From: Trueperaceae bacterium
GTDB lineage: Bacteria; Deinococcota; Deinococci; Deinococcales; Trueperaceae
NCBI GenBank assembly: GCA_011389865.1
Contig: JAABTL010000010.1
Location: 20,687 to 84,686 of the forward strand
Direction of reading: 5' to 3'
DNA: 64,000 bases
The notes beneath the pieces are model-generated. The model had not been told where the DNA came from. It saw only the letters and a list, made by a program, of their open reading frames with translations, and searched no databases. Within the stretch, counting starts at the first letter, position 1; the number at the start of each line of letters is the position of its first letter. Made by a program: the position numbers and the translations under genes. Shown in pieces: positions 39,183 through 47,099 of this stretch.

Positions 39183-40298
39183 TCACCTCGCGGCGGCGAG
39201 CTGACGCAGGACACCACCGAGCACGGCGATCGAGCGATCGAGCTCGTCGAGCGCCAACCGCTCGACGGGCGTGTGATCGAGCGCGGCGTCGCCGGGACCG
39301 TAGGCGACCGTGTCGCCGCTCCACGCCGGCGCGACGACGTTCCAGTCGGACGTGCCGGTCTTGACCCGGGGCGCCGGCACCCCGCCCGCTGCACGGATGG
39401 CCGCGCGGAAGGCGCGCGCGAGGCGCCCGTCACGCTGCGCGCGGACGGCCACCGCGCCGTCGTCCGTCGTCCAGCTCAGTCCCGGCCCCAGGTCGACGGT
39501 CGCGAGCGCGGCGCGCAACGCGTCCGGCGACCAGGCGGGCGGCAGACGCCAGTCGAGCACGGCCTCCGCCCGCTCGGTCATGCCGTCGTGGCTCGAGGCG
39601 AGCGACGTCAACGCGACCTGCAGCCTGTCGAACAGGCGCGCCTCCGCCCCGTCGACCGCGGCCGGCGCCGCCTCGGCAGCCCAGGCCCGCACGCGCGACC
39701 AGGCCGCGACGAGCGCCTCGCAGGCGGTCGCCTCGTCCCTCGCGGCGTGCGCGGCGGGCCGCTCGGCACGCAAGTGCAGCCGCAGGTGCCCCTTGTAGCC
39801 GAGGGTGAGCCCGTCCCAGCCGCTGGGCTCGCCGACGATCAGCAGGTGCGGACGTGGGTAGGCCAGCACGGCGTGACGCGCGCCGCGGCTGCCCGGAGCC
39901 TCCTCCCCCACCGCGCCGACGAAGCGGAGCTCCAGGGCTTCCCGCACGTCGGCGCCGGCCCGCGCCAGGGCCGCCGCCAGCGCCACCGCCGGTCCCTTGG
40001 CGTCGACCGTCCCGCGGCCGTGCAGGATGCCGTCCTCCACGCGCACGGGCGGCCCGCCCGGGAACGTGTCGAGGTGCCCGAGCAGCGTCACCCGCAGCGC
40101 CCCGCGACCGGCGACCGCGACGGCGTTGCCCGCCTCGTCGACGAAGGCCTCGTCGGCGTGGGGCGCCAACGCGGCGACGAACCTCGCGGAGACGGCCGCC
40201 TCCGCGCCGCTGGGGCTCGGCAGCCGCACCACCTCCTCCAACAGGGCGCGCGCGCCGGCGTCGCCCAGCAGGTTCGCGGCGCCGGCGCCGCGCGTCAC
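39183..40298 (-). CDS. lysK: [LysW]-lysine hydrolase LysK
   Basis: LPSPSGAEAAVSARFVAAL, LLGHLDTFPGGPPVRVEDGILHGRGTVDAKGPAVALAAAL, GAVGEEAPGSRGARH, LLIVGEPSGWDGLTLGYKGHLRL; in lys cluster. Confidence 0.88.
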   Translation of the reverse strand: MTRGAGAANLLGDAGARALLEEVVRLPSPSGAEAAVSARFVAALAPHADEAFVDEAGNAVAVAGRGALRVTLLGHLDTFPGGPPVRVEDGILHGRGTVDAKGPAVALAAALARAGADVREALELRFVGAVGEEAPGSRGARHAVLAYPRPHLLIVGEPSGWDGLTLGYKGHLRLHLRAERPAAHAARDEATACEALVAAWSRVRAWAAEAAPAAVDGAEARLFDRLQVALTSLASSHDGMTERAEAVLDWRLPPAWSPDALRAALATVDLGPGLSWTTDDGAVAVRAQRDGRLARAFRAAIRAAGGVPAPRVKTGTSDWNVVAPAWSGDTVAYGPGDAALDHTPVERLALDELDRSIAVLGGVLRQLAAAR

Positions 40299-41500
40299 CG
40301 CCGCAGCACGCGACCGAAGGCGGCGAGCGCCTCGTCGACCTCGTCCTCGCCGATCACGAGCGGCGGCACGAAGCGGATGACGCTGGCGCCGGCGTTGATC
40401 AGCAGGAGGCCCTCGTCGCGTAACGCGGCGATCACGGGAGCGGCCTTCTCCTTGAGCTCGACGCCGAGCATGAGGCCGAGGCCACGGACCTCCCGCACGC
40501 GCGGGCTGCCGAGGGCCTCGATGCCCTCGCGGAAGCGCCGGCCCATCCGCTCCGCGTGCGCCATGAGGTCGCGCGCCTCGATCTCCTCGAGGACCGCCAG
40601 GCCGGCGGCCGCGGCCAGCGGGTTGCCCCCGAAGGTCGTGCCGTGCCCGCCGGCGGGCATCGCGGCGGCGACGGCATCGGTCATCGCCAGCGCGCCGATC
40701 GGCACGCCGCCGGCGAGGCCCTTCGCCAGCGTGACGAGGTCGGGCACGACCCCGGCATGCTCGCTGGCGAGGAAGCGCCCGGTGCGACCGACGCCGCACT
40801 GGATCTCGTCGAACGCCAGCAGCGCGCCGCGCTCGTCGGCGAGCTCGCGTGCCCGCCGCAGGTAGGCGGCGCTGGCGGGGTGCACCCCGCCCTCGCCCTG
40901 CACCGGCTCCAGCCAGATCATCGCCGTGTCGTCGCCGACGGCGGCGTCGAGCTCGTCGAGGTCGTCGTAGCGCACGAAGTCGACCGGGACGGACAGCGGC
41001 TCGAAGGGCTCGCGGTACTTGACCTCCCAGGTCATCGCGAGCGCGCCGAGCGTCCTGCCGGCGAAGCCGCGCTTGGCGGCGACCACCCGGCGCCGCCCGG
41101 TGGCCACCCGGGACCACTTGAGCGCCGCCTCGTTGACCTCGGCCCCGGAGTTGGCCAGGAAGACGCGTGACAGCGGCGCGGGCAGGTGTTCGAAGAGCTT
41201 GTCGACGAACGCCGTCCGGACGTCGTTGCCGAGGTTCTGCGGGCAGACGATCAGCCGCCGCGCCTGGGCGGCGATCGCGTCCGCCAGGCGGGCGTTGCCG
41301 TGCCCCACGCTGGCGACCGCGATGCCCGCCATGCCGTCGAGGTAGCGGCGGCCGTCGGCGTCGAACAGGCGCGCGCCCTCGCCGCGCACGAAGACCACGT
41401 CGGGCGACCACAGGCCGGGGGCGTGCGCGGCGGCGCGGGCGAGGACATCGGCCGTGCTGGGGAACTCGGGGGCGGCGGCTGCGAAGGTGGCGTCGTTCAT
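40295..41500 (-). CDS. lysJ: [LysW]-aminoadipate semialdehyde aminotransferase LysJ
   Basis: Class III aminotransferase: LFDADGRRYLDGMAGIAVASVGHGNARL, FLANSGAEVNEAALKWSR, LLAFDEIQCGVGRTGRFLA, TLAKGLAGGVPIGAL. Confidence 0.9.
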   Translation of the reverse strand: MNDATFAAAAPEFPSTADVLARAAAHAPGLWSPDVVFVRGEGARLFDADGRRYLDGMAGIAVASVGHGNARLADAIAAQARRLIVCPQNLGNDVRTAFVDKLFEHLPAPLSRVFLANSGAEVNEAALKWSRVATGRRRVVAAKRGFAGRTLGALAMTWEVKYREPFEPLSVPVDFVRYDDLDELDAAVGDDTAMIWLEPVQGEGGVHPASAAYLRRARELADERGALLAFDEIQCGVGRTGRFLASEHAGVVPDLVTLAKGLAGGVPIGALAMTDAVAAAMPAGGHGTTFGGNPLAAAAGLAVLEEIEARDLMAHAERMGRRFREGIEALGSPRVREVRGLGLMLGVELKEKAAPVIAALRDEGLLLINAGASVIRFVPPLVIGEDEVDEALAAFGRVLRR

Positions 41501-41523: not shown

Positions 41524-42327
41524 TCAGGCGACCACGGTACCGTGCCCCGCGAGCGCGCGGCGGAGCGGCGCCGGGCACCGCCCGTCCGCCAGGACCGCCC
41601 GGGCGACCCCGCCGGCGACCGCGGCGGCGGCGCCCTCCAGCTTCTTCCTCATGCGGCCCTGGGCCCACGCCAGCGCGTCGTCGACGTCGGCGATCGCGAC
41701 CCGCGGGACGAGGCTGGCCTCGTCCGGGAAGTCGCGCAGCAACCCGGGGACGTTGGACAGCAGCACCAGCGCGTCGGCCGCCAGCGCGACGGCGATCGCC
41801 GAGGCGGCCCGGTCACCGTCCACGTTGACCGCCGCGCCCTCGTGCGAGGCGGCCAGCGGCGCGATGACCGGCAGGAAACCGGCGCCGAGGAGCAGCCGCA
41901 GCAGCCCCGCGTCGACCCGCTCGACGGCGCCGGTGTGGTCGTCGCGCAGGACGACCGTCTTGCCCCGCTCGACGCTGCGGACGCTGCGCTTGTGGCGCGC
42001 CTCGATCAGGCGTCCGTCCAGGCCCGAGAGCCCGAGCGCCGGCACCCCCCGCGACTGCAGACGCTCGACCCACGCCTTGTTGACGCCACCGGCGACCGCC
42101 ATCGTGAACGCCTCGAGGGTCGCCCGGTCGGTGTAGCGGCTCGTGTGCCCGCTGGGGCTGGTGACGAAGCGCGGCGGCACCCCCAGCGCCTCACCGAGCC
42201 GGGTCGCGGCAGCACCGCCACCGTGGACCAGCACGAGCCGGACCCCTTCGGCCCAGTGGGCGGCCACGTCGTCGGCGATGGCGTCGTGATCGAGGCCCTC
42301 GGCGCCCCCCAGCTTGACGACGATCAC
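41524..42327 (-). CDS. lysZ: [LysW]-aminoadipate kinase LysZ
   Basis: VIVVKLGGAEG, VRLVLVHGGGAAATRLGEALGVPPRFVTSPSGHTSRYTDRATLEAF, NVDGDRAASAIAVALAADALVLLSNVPGLL, GRMRKKLEGA; GTG start. Confidence 0.9.
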   Translation of the reverse strand: MIVVKLGGAEGLDHDAIADDVAAHWAEGVRLVLVHGGGAAATRLGEALGVPPRFVTSPSGHTSRYTDRATLEAFTMAVAGGVNKAWVERLQSRGVPALGLSGLDGRLIEARHKRSVRSVERGKTVVLRDDHTGAVERVDAGLLRLLLGAGFLPVIAPLAASHEGAAVNVDGDRAASAIAVALAADALVLLSNVPGLLRDFPDEASLVPRVAIADVDDALAWAQGRMRKKLEGAAAAVAGGVARAVLADGRCPAPLRRALAGHGTVVA

Positions 42328-43613
42328 GCGGACGCCTCCGCCGCGGCCGCCCGCCACACGGCGCGCGCGGCGCGGTCGAGGCCGGTCGGCAGCTCGACCG
42401 CCGCGACGTCGAGGTAGCGCAAGAAGCGCGCCAGGCCGGCGACCAGAGCGTCTCGCTCGCGCGCCTCGCGCGAGCGAGGCGCGCGCGAGCGAGACGCGCG
42501 CGAGCGAGGCGACCGCCCGCCGGGCGCGGGCGCCTCCCACCACCAGCCGTCGACGCGGAGTCGCGGCGTCACCCCGGCCAGCCGGCGACCGTCGAAGCGC
42601 GCCACGAAGCGCTCGCCGACGATCAGCGGGACGACGTAGTAGCCCCAGCGGCGGCGCGGGGCGGGCTTGTAGACCTCCCACACGTAGTCGAAGCCGAAGA
42701 GGTCGGCGAGCGCGCGGCGGTCCCACATGAGGTTGTCCAGCGGCCCCAGGACGCGCGCCGGGCCGGCGGCGGAGGTGGCGAGACGCCCCGCGGGCGACAG
42801 GCCCGGCGGCGCCAGGTAGGCGTCGCCCTCGACCTCCCACGCCCGAAGCGCGCCCTCGGCGAGGAGCGCGTCGATCGCGCCGGCGCGGGTGGCGGCGTCG
42901 ACGGGCAGCGACCAGAGCGCGGCCGGGGCCCGCTGGCGCAGCAGGCCGGCTGCCTGCACCCGCCGCCGGACCAGGCGACGCACGGCGTCCGCGTCGTCCA
43001 GCGGCGGCGCCGACCACACCGCGGGCGGCAGCACCCGCTCGGGCAGGTCGTAGACGTGGCGCCCGCGCTCGCGGTCGCGCGTGACCAGCCTCCCCGTGTC
43101 CCACAGGGCGCGCAGTAGGTGCTTGACGAGCCGCGGCCCGTACCACGAGCCGCGCAGTTCCGGGCGCGGCGCGTCGTCGAAGCCGAGCGCCGAGGCGGGA
43201 CCGTCATGGCCGATCCGCGCCAGCACGCCGGCGACCGCGTCGGGGTGACGCTCGAGCAACGGCCGCCAGCGCTCGGCGTGGTGGCGGTGGTAGAGCGCGC
43301 GCGCGGGCCAGTCGACGGCCAGCGTGAGGCAGGCCTGCTTGTCCCAGGCGTCGAGCCAGGTGCGGTCGCGGTACGCGGGCCCCTGCCAGTCGTCGATGCG
43401 GTAGCCGTCGACCCGCGCCTGCAGCACGAGGTCGTGGTTGCGGCCCATCGGGGCGAGCGGGTCGACCTGGACGCTGCCGAGCCGCACGGCGACGTCGTTC
43501 AGCGGTGCCCGGGCGAGTTGGTGGCGCAGCAGCGCCCGGCGGGCGTCGGACCGCGAGACGCGCAGGGGCGCCGGCGCGGCGTGGGCGCCGCCCGCTTCGT
43601 GGGGAGCGCTCAC
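42324..43613 (-). CDS. YcaQ/AlkZ-like winged-helix DNA glycosylase family protein
   Basis: SRSDARRALLRHQLARAP...LGSVQVDPLAPMGRNHDLVLQARVDGY (QxD), WYGPRLVKHLLRALWDTGRLV, GPLDNLMWDRRALADLFGFDYVWEVYKPAPRRRWGYYVVPLIVGERFVARFD. Confidence 0.82.
   Translation of the reverse strand: MSAPHEAGGAHAAPAPLRVSRSDARRALLRHQLARAPLNDVAVRLGSVQVDPLAPMGRNHDLVLQARVDGYRIDDWQGPAYRDRTWLDAWDKQACLTLAVDWPARALYHRHHAERWRPLLERHPDAVAGVLARIGHDGPASALGFDDAPRPELRGSWYGPRLVKHLLRALWDTGRLVTRDRERGRHVYDLPERVLPPAVWSAPPLDDADAVRRLVRRRVQAAGLLRQRAPAALWSLPVDAATRAGAIDALLAEGALRAWEVEGDAYLAPPGLSPAGRLATSAAGPARVLGPLDNLMWDRRALADLFGFDYVWEVYKPAPRRRWGYYVVPLIVGERFVARFDGRRLAGVTPRLRVDGWWWEAPAPGGRSPRSRASRSRAPRSREARERDALVAGLARFLRYLDVAAVELPTGLDRAARAVWRAAAAEASA
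42448..42510. repeat. palindromic plus 15-bp tandem repeat insertion inside the YcaQ-like CDS
   Basis: gcgtctcgctcgcgcgcctcgc (42448-42469) pairs with gcgaggcgcgcgcgagcgagacgc (42474-42497, one 2-nt bulge); gcgcgcgagcgag[a/g]c repeated at 42481-42495 and 42496-42510. Confidence 0.9.
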
Positions 43614-44665
43614 GGGAACAGACCAGGGAACCCCAGGCCTTCGCCCTCGTCCCAACCGAGGGCGACGTTGAGCGCCTGCAGCGCGTGGCCGGACGTCCCC
43701 TTGACCAGGTTGTCGATGGCGCTCATCACCACCAGCCTTCCGCTGTCCGGGTCGAGCGCGAAGCCCAGGTCGCACCAGTTGCTGCCGTCGAGCACCCGTG
43801 GATCTGGCACCCGGTGCACGCCGCGGCGGGCGGCGACGAGCCGCACGAAGCGCGCGTCGCCGTAGGCCTCCTCGAGCGCGGCGCGCACGTCGCCCTCGCC
43901 GCTGCCGTCGTGGAGCCAGGCGTGCACGGTGACCAGCACGCCGCGGACGCGTTCGATCGCGGTGGCGGTGACGTGCGCCTCGACGCCCGGGAACGCCTGC
44001 AGGACCTCCGCCGTGTGCCGGTGCCGCACCGGCTGGTAGGTGCGCACGACGCCGGCGCGCACGGGGTGGTGACCCGCCGCGGTCGGCGCGTGGCCCGCGG
44101 CCGAGGAGCCCACCTTGGCCTCGATGAGCACCTCGCGGCGCGCCAGGAGCCCGCCCCGCACGAGCGGCAACAGCGCCAGCACGGTGGCGGTGGCGATGCA
44201 GCCGGCGCCGGCCAGGCGCGTCGCGCCCGGCAGGCGCGGCCCGCCGGGGGCAACGCGGTCGAGCTCCGGGTTGGCGTAGACGAACGAGGGCAGGAGCTCC
44301 GGGCGTGCGTGCGGGGTCCCGTACCAGCGCGCGTAGGCCTCCGGGTCGCGCAGCCGGAAGTCGGCCGACAGGTCGACCAGGACGCCCGCCAGCGGGAGCA
44401 GGTCGTCGACCCGCTGGGCGAGCTCGCCGTGGGGCAAGGCCGCCACGACGACGTCCGCGGGCCGCAAGCCCGCGAGGGGCTCGAAGCGCAGCCGGGTCAC
44501 GCCGCGGAGGTTCGGGTGGACGAGGGCGACGGGCTCGCCCGCGTGCCGCTCGCTGGTGACCTGGACGACGTCGAGGCGCGGGTGCCCCAGCGCCAGGCGC
44601 AGGAACTCGCCGCCGGCGAAGCCGCTGCCGCCGACGATCGCGACGGTGCGCACGGCGTCGCTCAC
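43610..44665 (-). CDS. lysY: [LysW]-aminoadipate 6-phosphate reductase LysY (ArgC-like)
   Basis: VAIVGGSGFAGGEFLRLALGHPRLDVVQVTSERHAGEPVALVHPNLRGVTRLRF, VDLSADFRLRDPEAYARWYGTPHARPELL, GAGCIATATVLAL. Confidence 0.92.
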   Translation of the reverse strand: MSDAVRTVAIVGGSGFAGGEFLRLALGHPRLDVVQVTSERHAGEPVALVHPNLRGVTRLRFEPLAGLRPADVVVAALPHGELAQRVDDLLPLAGVLVDLSADFRLRDPEAYARWYGTPHARPELLPSFVYANPELDRVAPGGPRLPGATRLAGAGCIATATVLALLPLVRGGLLARREVLIEAKVGSSAAGHAPTAAGHHPVRAGVVRTYQPVRHRHTAEVLQAFPGVEAHVTATAIERVRGVLVTVHAWLHDGSGEGDVRAALEEAYGDARFVRLVAARRGVHRVPDPRVLDGSNWCDLGFALDPDSGRLVVMSAIDNLVKGTSGHALQALNVALGWDEGEGLGFPGLFP

Positions 44666-44669
44666 GCGC

Positions 44670-45626
44670 TCAGCCTACCGCGGGCGCGGGGCTCGCCGGC
44701 GGCCGCCACGGCGCCCAGGCGTCGGCGTCGGCCGGGCCTAGGGCCTCGGCGTCGGCCGGATCGCTGCGAGCCACGGACGCCAACCCCAGCACGAACTGCA
44801 CCACCTCGCCCGGGATGTCGACCCCGGTGGTGTCGATCGAGTTGCGGAACTCCATCGTGTGGTTCACCTCGACGACGAGCAGGCCACGGTCGCTCTCCAC
44901 CAGGTCGACCGCCAGCACGCCGCCGCCGACCGCGCGAGCGGCGCGCAGCGCGATCTCGGACAGCCCGTCGTCGACCGGGCACGCACGCGCGACGCCGCCG
45001 CGGGCCGTGTTGGTGATCCAGTGGTCGCTCTCGCGGTAGATCGCGGCCACCACCCGGTCGCCCACGACGAAGGCGCGGATGTCGCGCCCGGGCTTCTCTA
45101 CGTGCTCCTGCAGGTAGATGACGCGATGGGCCGGGCCCCCGAGCACCTCCTTGTGCTCGAGCACCGCCGCGACCGCGTCCGCGTCGGACAGCCGGCTGAC
45201 CATCCGCCCCCAGGAGCCGACGACGGGCTTGAGGACGATGGGGTAGCCGAGCTCCTCGCAGCGCTCCAGGGCCTCCTCCGTGCCGAACGCGACCACGGTG
45301 CGCGGCGTCGGCACGCCGGCGGCGGCCAGGATCGCGCTGGTGGCGAGCTTGTCGCCACACGTGTCGATCACCTCCGGTCGGTTGAGGACGACGCTGCCCG
45401 CCGCGGCGTACAGCCGCGCGAGCGCCAGGCCGCGCGCCTGCGACGTGCAGCGCTCGAGCACGACGTCGTAGCGCCGCACGGGAGCCGCCCCGAGGTCGAA
45501 GGCCAGCCGGGGCGCGTAGAGCCGGTCGACGGCGACGCCCGCGGCCCCGAACGCCTCGAACAGCAGCCGCTCCTCTGGGCGGAGGCGGTCGTACGCGACG
45601 GCGATGCGCGGCTGCGTCGGGCTCAT
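44670..45626 (-). CDS. lysX: alpha-aminoadipate--LysW ligase LysX
   Basis: [120 protein letters not shown]. Confidence 0.93.
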
Positions 45627-45793
45627 TCGCCCCAGTCCTCGTCCTCCATGGGCGCGGGCTCGAAGCGCAGCGGCTCGAGCGACACCACCTCGAGCTCGAC
45701 GCCGTCGTCGCTGACGACGAGCTCGCCGAGCTCGAGGGCGGTGGGGTCGACGTCGACGGTGCCGTGCGGGGTGCGGACGGTGGTGGTGGGCAT
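45623..45793 (-). CDS. lysW: amino-carrier protein LysW (56 aa), cysteine-less variant; not in the supplied ORF track
   Basis: Own translation of - strand: [57 protein letters not shown]-terminal EDWGE; ATGA overlap with lysX. Confidence 0.88.
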
Positions 45794-45836
45794 GGGGTCC
45801 TCCGAGGGCCGGTCGCGGCGCTTTCATTTCTAAAGT

Positions 45837-45906: not shown

Positions 45907-46070
45907 ATCGCGTCGCACATCGTCCCGGACGCCACTCTCTCGTCCCTTGAGCGTCGCCGTCGATGCGCTCGCGAGCCGCGCGCCCCTCCGCCGTTCCCGG
46001 TGCCCGATCCACCCGCCACCTTCGTTTCCTAAGCGCGCGCCGTCGGTCGGGCGCGCGGTACGCTCGCCCG

Positions 46071-47099
46071 ATGCGGGCGAGCCTCCTCCACTGGTACGAC
46101 CGGTCGGCGCGCCCCCTCCCCTGGCGGCGCGAGCCCCGCGACCCCTACCTCACGTGGGTCGTGGAGACGATGTCGCAGCAGACCCGCATCGAGACCGTCG
46201 TCGCGCGCCTGCCGGGCTTCCTGGCGCGGTTCCCCGACGTTGGGCGCCTGGCGGCCGCCGACCCGGGCGAGGTGCTCGCCGCCTGGTCTGGTCTCGGCTA
46301 CTACCGGCGGGCCCGCGCCCTGCACGCCGCCGCCAGGGTCATCGCGCACGACCTCGACGGTCGCTGGCCGAGCGACGTCGCGGGCTGGCTGCGCCTGCCC
46401 GGCGTGGGCCCCTACACCGCGGCCGCGGTGGCAGCGCAGGCTCTCGGGATCGCTACGATCGCGGTCGACGGCAACGTGCGGCGCGTGGGCGCCCGCCTGC
46501 TGGGCCTGCGCGAGCCGACCGACGCCGATGTGCGGCGCGGGCTCGCCGAGCTGCTGCTGGTGCCAGGGGCGGGGTCGTCCGCGACCCCGGTCGCGGGCGC
46601 CGCCGACGACCCCGCCCGCGTGGCCGAGGCGCTGGTCGAGCTGGGCGCCGTCGTCTGCACGCCGCGGCGGCCCCGCTGCGACGACTGCCCGCTGCGGTCC
46701 GGCTGCGCCGCGGCAGCGGCCGGCGATCCGACGCGCTTCCCCGCCCCGCGCCGGCGCCCGCGCGTCCAGCCGCTGACGCTCCACGCCTGGTGGGTCACCC
46801 GAGCCGGCGAGGACGGCCGCGACCGCATGGCGCTCGAACGGCGCCCGGAGGACGGCCTCTGGGCCGGGCTCCACGGGCCGCCGTGGCGCACCGAAGCGCC
46901 CGCGGTCGGCACCCGCGTGGCCTCCTTCCGCCATTTGCTGACGCACCGGCGCATCGAGGCGATCGTCTGGCGGACGCCGACCCCGCCGGCGGACGCCGAG
47001 GTCGCCTGGTACCGCCGCGACGAGGCCCTCGCCCTCGGCCTGGCCCGGATCGATCGCCGCGCTCTGGCCTGCCTCGACGGGCATGGGGCGTTAGGCTGA
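46071..47099 (+). CDS. mutY: A/G-specific adenine glycosylase MutY
   Basis: LPWRREPRDPYLTWVVETMSQQTRIETV, GLGYYRRARALHAAA, LPGVGPYTAAAVAAQALG, VDGNVRRVGARL, CTPRRPRCDDCPLRSGC Fe-S ligands. Confidence 0.92.
   Translation: MRASLLHWYDRSARPLPWRREPRDPYLTWVVETMSQQTRIETVVARLPGFLARFPDVGRLAAADPGEVLAAWSGLGYYRRARALHAAARVIAHDLDGRWPSDVAGWLRLPGVGPYTAAAVAAQALGIATIAVDGNVRRVGARLLGLREPTDADVRRGLAELLLVPGAGSSATPVAGAADDPARVAEALVELGAVVCTPRRPRCDDCPLRSGCAAAAAGDPTRFPAPRRRPRVQPLTLHAWWVTRAGEDGRDRMALERRPEDGLWAGLHGPPWRTEAPAVGTRVASFRHLLTHRRIEAIVWRTPTPPADAEVAWYRRDEALALGLARIDRRALACLDGHGALG

Follow-up and report, generated by a model that had tools for sequence, protein, structure and literature searches.

Can the amino-group carrier protein LysW, known as a zinc-ribbon protein, do its work without a single zinc-binding cysteine? 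The question is raised by a short reading frame in a stretch of 64,000 nucleotides from a Trueperaceae bacterium (contig JAABTL010000010.1, positions 20,687 to 84,686), referred to below as the window. The frame occupies positions 45623-45793 of the minus strand, begins with ATG and encodes 56 residues, none of which is cysteine, exactly as it had been quoted in the initial annotation.

The lysW gene and its lysine cluster

The identification as LysW, proposed earlier from the letters of the sequence, was borne out by profile and structure searches. The protein scores 58 bits with the TIGR01206 lysW equivalog model, above the cut-off of 53.2, which is exceeded by most, not all, of the other cysteine-free LysW proteins of the Truepera family. 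It reaches 30.5 bits with PF21344 (Zn_ribbon_LysW; cut-off 27), and its best solved relative is the LysW of T. thermophilus (3wwl, E 3.2e-11). The C-terminal EDWGE, with its acceptor Glu, is present, and is invariant across the three kinds of LysW described below (the cysteine type and two cysteine-free types, I and II). The four ligand cysteines in two knuckles, which mark the structural class of PF21344, are found neither in the window protein nor in 26 family members.

The gene is the first of a cluster transcribed from the minus strand, composed as follows.

45799-45803, minus strand: ribosome-binding site GGAGG, 5 nt upstream of the lysW ATG
45623-45793, minus strand: lysW, amino-group carrier protein without cysteine; turn 1 T8-P9-H10-G11, turn 2 S28-D29-D30-G31, C-terminal EDWGE
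44670-45626, minus strand: lysX, alpha-aminoadipate-LysW ligase (TIGR02144, 348 bits, cut-off 275.6)
43610-44665, minus strand: lysY/argC-type reductase of the LysW pathway (TIGR01850, 325.7 bits, cut-off 233.6), called lysY from its position in the operon
42324-43595 (approximate start), minus strand: AlkZ-like DNA glycosylase-family gene between lysY and lysZ (PF06224, 132.5 bits)
41524-42327, minus strand: lysZ, [LysW]-aminoadipate kinase, GTG start (NF010659, 394.8 bits, cut-off 223)
40295-41500, minus strand: lysJ, [LysW]-aminoadipate semialdehyde/acetylornithine-type transaminase, assigned by TIGR00707 (412.3, cut-off 410); its NF042418 score, 456 bits, lies below the strict LysJ cut-off of 700
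39183-40298, minus strand: lysK, [LysW]-lysine hydrolase (NF003367, 374.4 bits, cut-off 363)

All five client enzymes (LysX, Y, Z, J and K) are thus encoded on the same strand, in agreement with the initial annotation, with the AlkZ-like gene interposed; this gene probably lies outside the LysW pathway, and is seen in part of the Truepera family only. The lysW stop and the lysX start share an ATGA, and the GGAGG motif recurs at the same place in close relatives. In every locus where both were found, lysX is the neighbour of lysW. Divergent from the cluster, on the plus strand, is an ORF at 45963-47099, judged from sequence to be a MutY-like adenine glycosylase.

Distribution and copy number

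The phylum-wide search covered 111 genomes of Deinococcota, 39 of which, including the window genome, belong to the Truepera family. Among the 32 LysW sequences extracted from this family, 27 are free of cysteine (type I), while the remaining 5 keep the CxxC...CxxC arrangement with four cysteines. The trait spans many genera, always with the same precise turns, and is found in Truepera radiovictrix, whose finished chromosome is a single contig of 3,260,398 bases. The alignment of orthologues across Deinococcota, proposed with the initial annotation, thus revealed a family-wide trait and, in addition, a second cysteine-free form, neither of which had been seen from the window.

The window genome is a draft (67 contigs, 97% complete), in which an error of sequencing, assembly or frame might mask the cysteines, or from which a canonical LysW serving the pathway might have escaped notice; both possibilities had been raised at the outset. 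A search of the whole assembly to E 10 returned no second LysW, nor did a search with the cysteine-free LysW of a relative return a further one, and the tandem zinc-ribbon companion described below is absent as well. An error is excluded because 27 genomes, one of them a finished chromosome, share the cysteine-free state; no in-frame cysteine was found upstream of the cysteine-free lysW ORFs. These data refute the explanation by error or by a second copy, save for the 3% of the genome outside the assembly, and leave it with a negligible probability.

The number of origins of type I was approached by two trees. In the rpoB tree, the 20 other type I genomes are separated from T. radiovictrix and its sister, a single clade being neither shown nor rejected (p-AU 0.166). 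The LysX tree is poorly resolved; its row L105 is labelled type I solely because the LysW is cut at a contig end, and the corresponding genome, G003, has the cysteine type (L101).

Some members of the Truepera family carry neither lysW nor lysX, and one of them, G089, has dapB instead, as could be expected if the pathway were being lost and lysW were a decaying gene with eroded cysteines. Against this, the coupling of the two genes is strict: every genome with a complete LysX also has LysW, and wherever LysW is missing, a true LysX is missing too, or LysX is cut at a contig end. Moreover, the same turns recur over many genera, EDWGE is intact and the gene is under purifying selection (see below). 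Furthermore, a search of two lysW-bearing genomes, G108 and the window genome itself (G000), returned no dapB, so that no complete diaminopimelate route is available as a backup. Decay is therefore very improbable.

A lysA-like gene was observed outside the window, at G000:C13:37032-38198 (293 bits, just under the cut-off). In G089, dapB and lysA are located at C60:28754-29533 and C121:2076-3212, which suggests that the aminoadipate route has been replaced by the diaminopimelate route in this genome; a pathway exchange of this sort has been reported for Deinococcus proteolyticus (PMC3356886).

Replacement of the zinc knuckles

The initial annotation had read the two CxxC positions as TPHG-like and SDDG. 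The replacement of the cysteines is confirmed; that the knuckles are shortened too had been missed. Column-by-column alignment shows that in type I C-P-E-C-G at the first knuckle is replaced by T-P-[YHFQ]-G and that, at the second knuckle, C-[DE]-x-C-G has given way to [ST]-D-[DE]-G; both have lost one residue. T8, P9, G11 and D29 do not vary among the 22 type I sequences that were aligned, and the position of H10 is occupied by Y in 14, H in 6, Q in 1 and F in 1. Outside the knuckles, the residues held in common with cysteine-bearing LysW are kept (LGE, ExE and the AP-x-E-x-EDWGE tail), and 14 alignment columns, including LGE, ExE and EDWGE, are invariant across type I, type II and the cysteine type. 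The strong negative charge is preserved, with mean net values of -14.2 in type I, -14.5 in type II and -14.9 in the cysteine type. Pairwise dN/dS ranges between 0.2 and 0.54 in all ten pairs compared within the genus, values obtained on a small protein with few sites, and shows, at the level of coding sequence, purifying selection on type I lysW.

The AlphaFold model of the window protein, built from these sequences (pLDDT 87.9), contains five strands, the tail being less certain, and folds into two hairpins with turns at the former knuckle sites. The six best PDB matches of the type I model are all LysW chains (probability 0.98-1.00), some of them uncomplexed and others solved together with LysZ, LysY or LysX/ArgX. 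The match is moderate, with TM scores of 0.61-0.67 by query length and E values from 1e-3 to 0.2. In models of this kind, which do not treat metals, the LysW fold is shown to be kept in type I.

Enzymes of the pathway are known to read the globular domain of LysW and its acidic charge. A passage of a review (PMC9303977) describes the same mode of reading by LysW enzymes. The window protein is very probably a true LysW orthologue that works as an amino-group carrier and has a globular domain which folds without zinc. In such a carrier, alpha-aminoadipate would be held on the C-terminal Glu of EDWGE, and LysX, Z, Y, J and K would convert it, still bound to LysW, to lysine. The two-hairpin domain would fold zinc-free, each knuckle (CPxCG, CxxCG) being substituted by a four-residue turn (TPxG, [ST]D[DE]G), and the conserved surface (LGE, ExEV and the acidic tail) would be retained. 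The earlier prediction that a zinc-free carrier is functional is thus supported, zinc-free being deduced from the absence of every one of the four ligands: the protein would bind no metal, would be stable and active, and the product would be lysine.

Alternatively, the metal might have been changed rather than lost, the functional carrier binding it by oxygen or His ligands (for example Asp, Thr or His) in the new turns. Both turns are rich in Asp, Glu and Thr, and in type I there is hardly any variation in TPxG and [ST]D[DE]G; in type II, N, D, D, E and T are invariant. However, H10, the sole His, is replaced by Y, F or Q in the majority of relatives, both turns are one residue shorter, unlike a preserved four-ligand cage, and tight turns commonly have sequences such as TPxG and [ST]D[DE]G. 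Ligation by the new turns is accordingly an improbable reading, even if it is the strongest competitor of the zinc-free carrier.

The second cysteine-free form and comparison with known systems

In type II LysW the knuckles have kept their full length and read NPE[ST]G and DDETG, in a protein of 57 residues without cysteine; N, D, D, E and T are invariant in its turns. It was found in a second family of Deinococcales (G006, G007 and G008, all MAGs) and in four Thermaceae genomes, including Meiothermus granaticius. Of the four Thermaceae genomes, G023 is presumably Meiothermus silvanus. The gene is in single copy, directly before lysX, and the type II model superimposes on 5eio_C with a TM score of 0.94 and an rmsd of 0.8 A, closer than the type I model. 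Since the knuckle solutions differ, and since types I and II fall in separate clades of the rpoB tree, each also holding cysteine-bearing lineages, at least two independent losses are the simplest reading, and type II looks, by sequence, like a loss independent from type I. No type II LysW was found in plasmid and viral collections, and the scan of named genomes returned no Deinococcus species among its matches. Genes for lysW of 57 residues are given for three Deinococcus species in the D. deserti paper (PMC2669436); this is the length of type II, and they are known here by length only.

M. granaticius offers a natural exchange of one carrier for the other. Its cysteine-free LysW lies beside a LysX which shares 98.6-98.9% identity with the LysX of two Meiothermus genomes of the cysteine-bearing kind. 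At the DNA level, identity to the cysteine-bearing Meiothermus is about 93-100% over most of lysX and about 76-91% in the 5' part of lysU, and falls to about 48-78% from the 3' end of lysU through lysW. The LysW of M. granaticius shares 95% identity with that of G034, a Thermaceae genome with a separately branching LysX. Judging from these identities, a patch spanning lysU(3')-orfE-lysW was likely swapped by recombination. The presence of a near-identical LysX beside either kind of carrier argues against zinc itself being the feature that the enzyme recognises, and both pairings presumably work.

Throughout other families of Deinococcota (L080, L002, L066, L065 and others), a gene was observed just before lysW; in L080 it spans roughly -566 to -224 relative to the stop codon of lysW. 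It encodes a protein of 90-112 residues, with two tandem LysW-like zinc ribbons, eight cysteines and no EDWGE tail; a search of the Truepera family returned no such protein. Because its position is conserved, a role in the LysW pathway is suggested.

The loss of cysteines might also be one part of a lineage-wide trend towards zinc sparing or thiol avoidance, not specific to LysW. T. radiovictrix is described in a published account (PMC3072082) as a radiation-resistant organism of alkaline habitats, and DksA, L31 and L36 have zinc-free paralogues in other organisms. Against such a trend, ribosomal protein L36, which commonly serves as a marker of zinc saving and is the one zinc protein used for this test in the Truepera family, has retained its cysteines in each of the 30 members that yielded it, so that the LysW loss is not a blanket zinc-saving response. 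Similarly, the tandem zinc-ribbon protein encoded upstream of type II lysW keeps all eight cysteines in the loci examined. A general trend is thus very unlikely, and the zinc-free carrier remains the preferred explanation.

A broader proposal, offered tentatively and carrying much less confidence, is that zinc may be dispensable for the carrier function of LysW, that it may have been lost by two routes, that type II may have been recombined into Meiothermus operons, and that the ancestral zinc may have had a separate role. If so, the ancestral site could have served stability at high temperature, or could have tied lysine production to zinc or to the redox state. LysW is the model amino-group carrier, and natural zinc-free versions would separate enzyme recognition from the holding of the fold. 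They would offer reconstitution and NMR work compact carriers free of both thiols and metal, together with a swap experiment that nature has already set up. Annotation or zinc-proteome counts based on cysteines will mis-score these proteins.

The carrier system itself is known, and the cysteine-free LysW is a variant of a known carrier. No description of such a variant was found in a literature search of limited journal coverage, and the solved LysW relatives returned by the searches are all of the cysteine-bearing kind. LysW of T. thermophilus (3wwl, 3wwn, 5eio) resembles the window protein in the lysW-lysX order, the ELGE and ELEVV core, the EDWGE tail and, by model, the fold; the window protein differs in having no cysteine and in both knuckles being one residue shorter (TPxG, [ST]D[DE]G). 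Type II (M. granaticius, other Thermaceae and three Deinococcales MAGs) is, like type I, cysteine-free, in single copy and located before lysX, but with its full-length knuckles, N/D and S/T in place of Cys, and 57 residues, it is a separate sequence solution. Archaeal LysW/ArgW can serve both lysine and arginine synthesis. Its representatives from Sulfolobus (3vpb) and Thermococcus (5k2m) share the fold, by structure match, and the EDWGE tail with the window protein; unlike it, they form a zinc ribbon with cysteines. The exchange of a zinc-binding protein for a zinc-free version has precedents in DksA2 and in alternative L31/L36 (PMC9213440, PMC13343924). These, however, are extra copies made under zinc starvation, whereas the cysteine-free LysW is the only copy.
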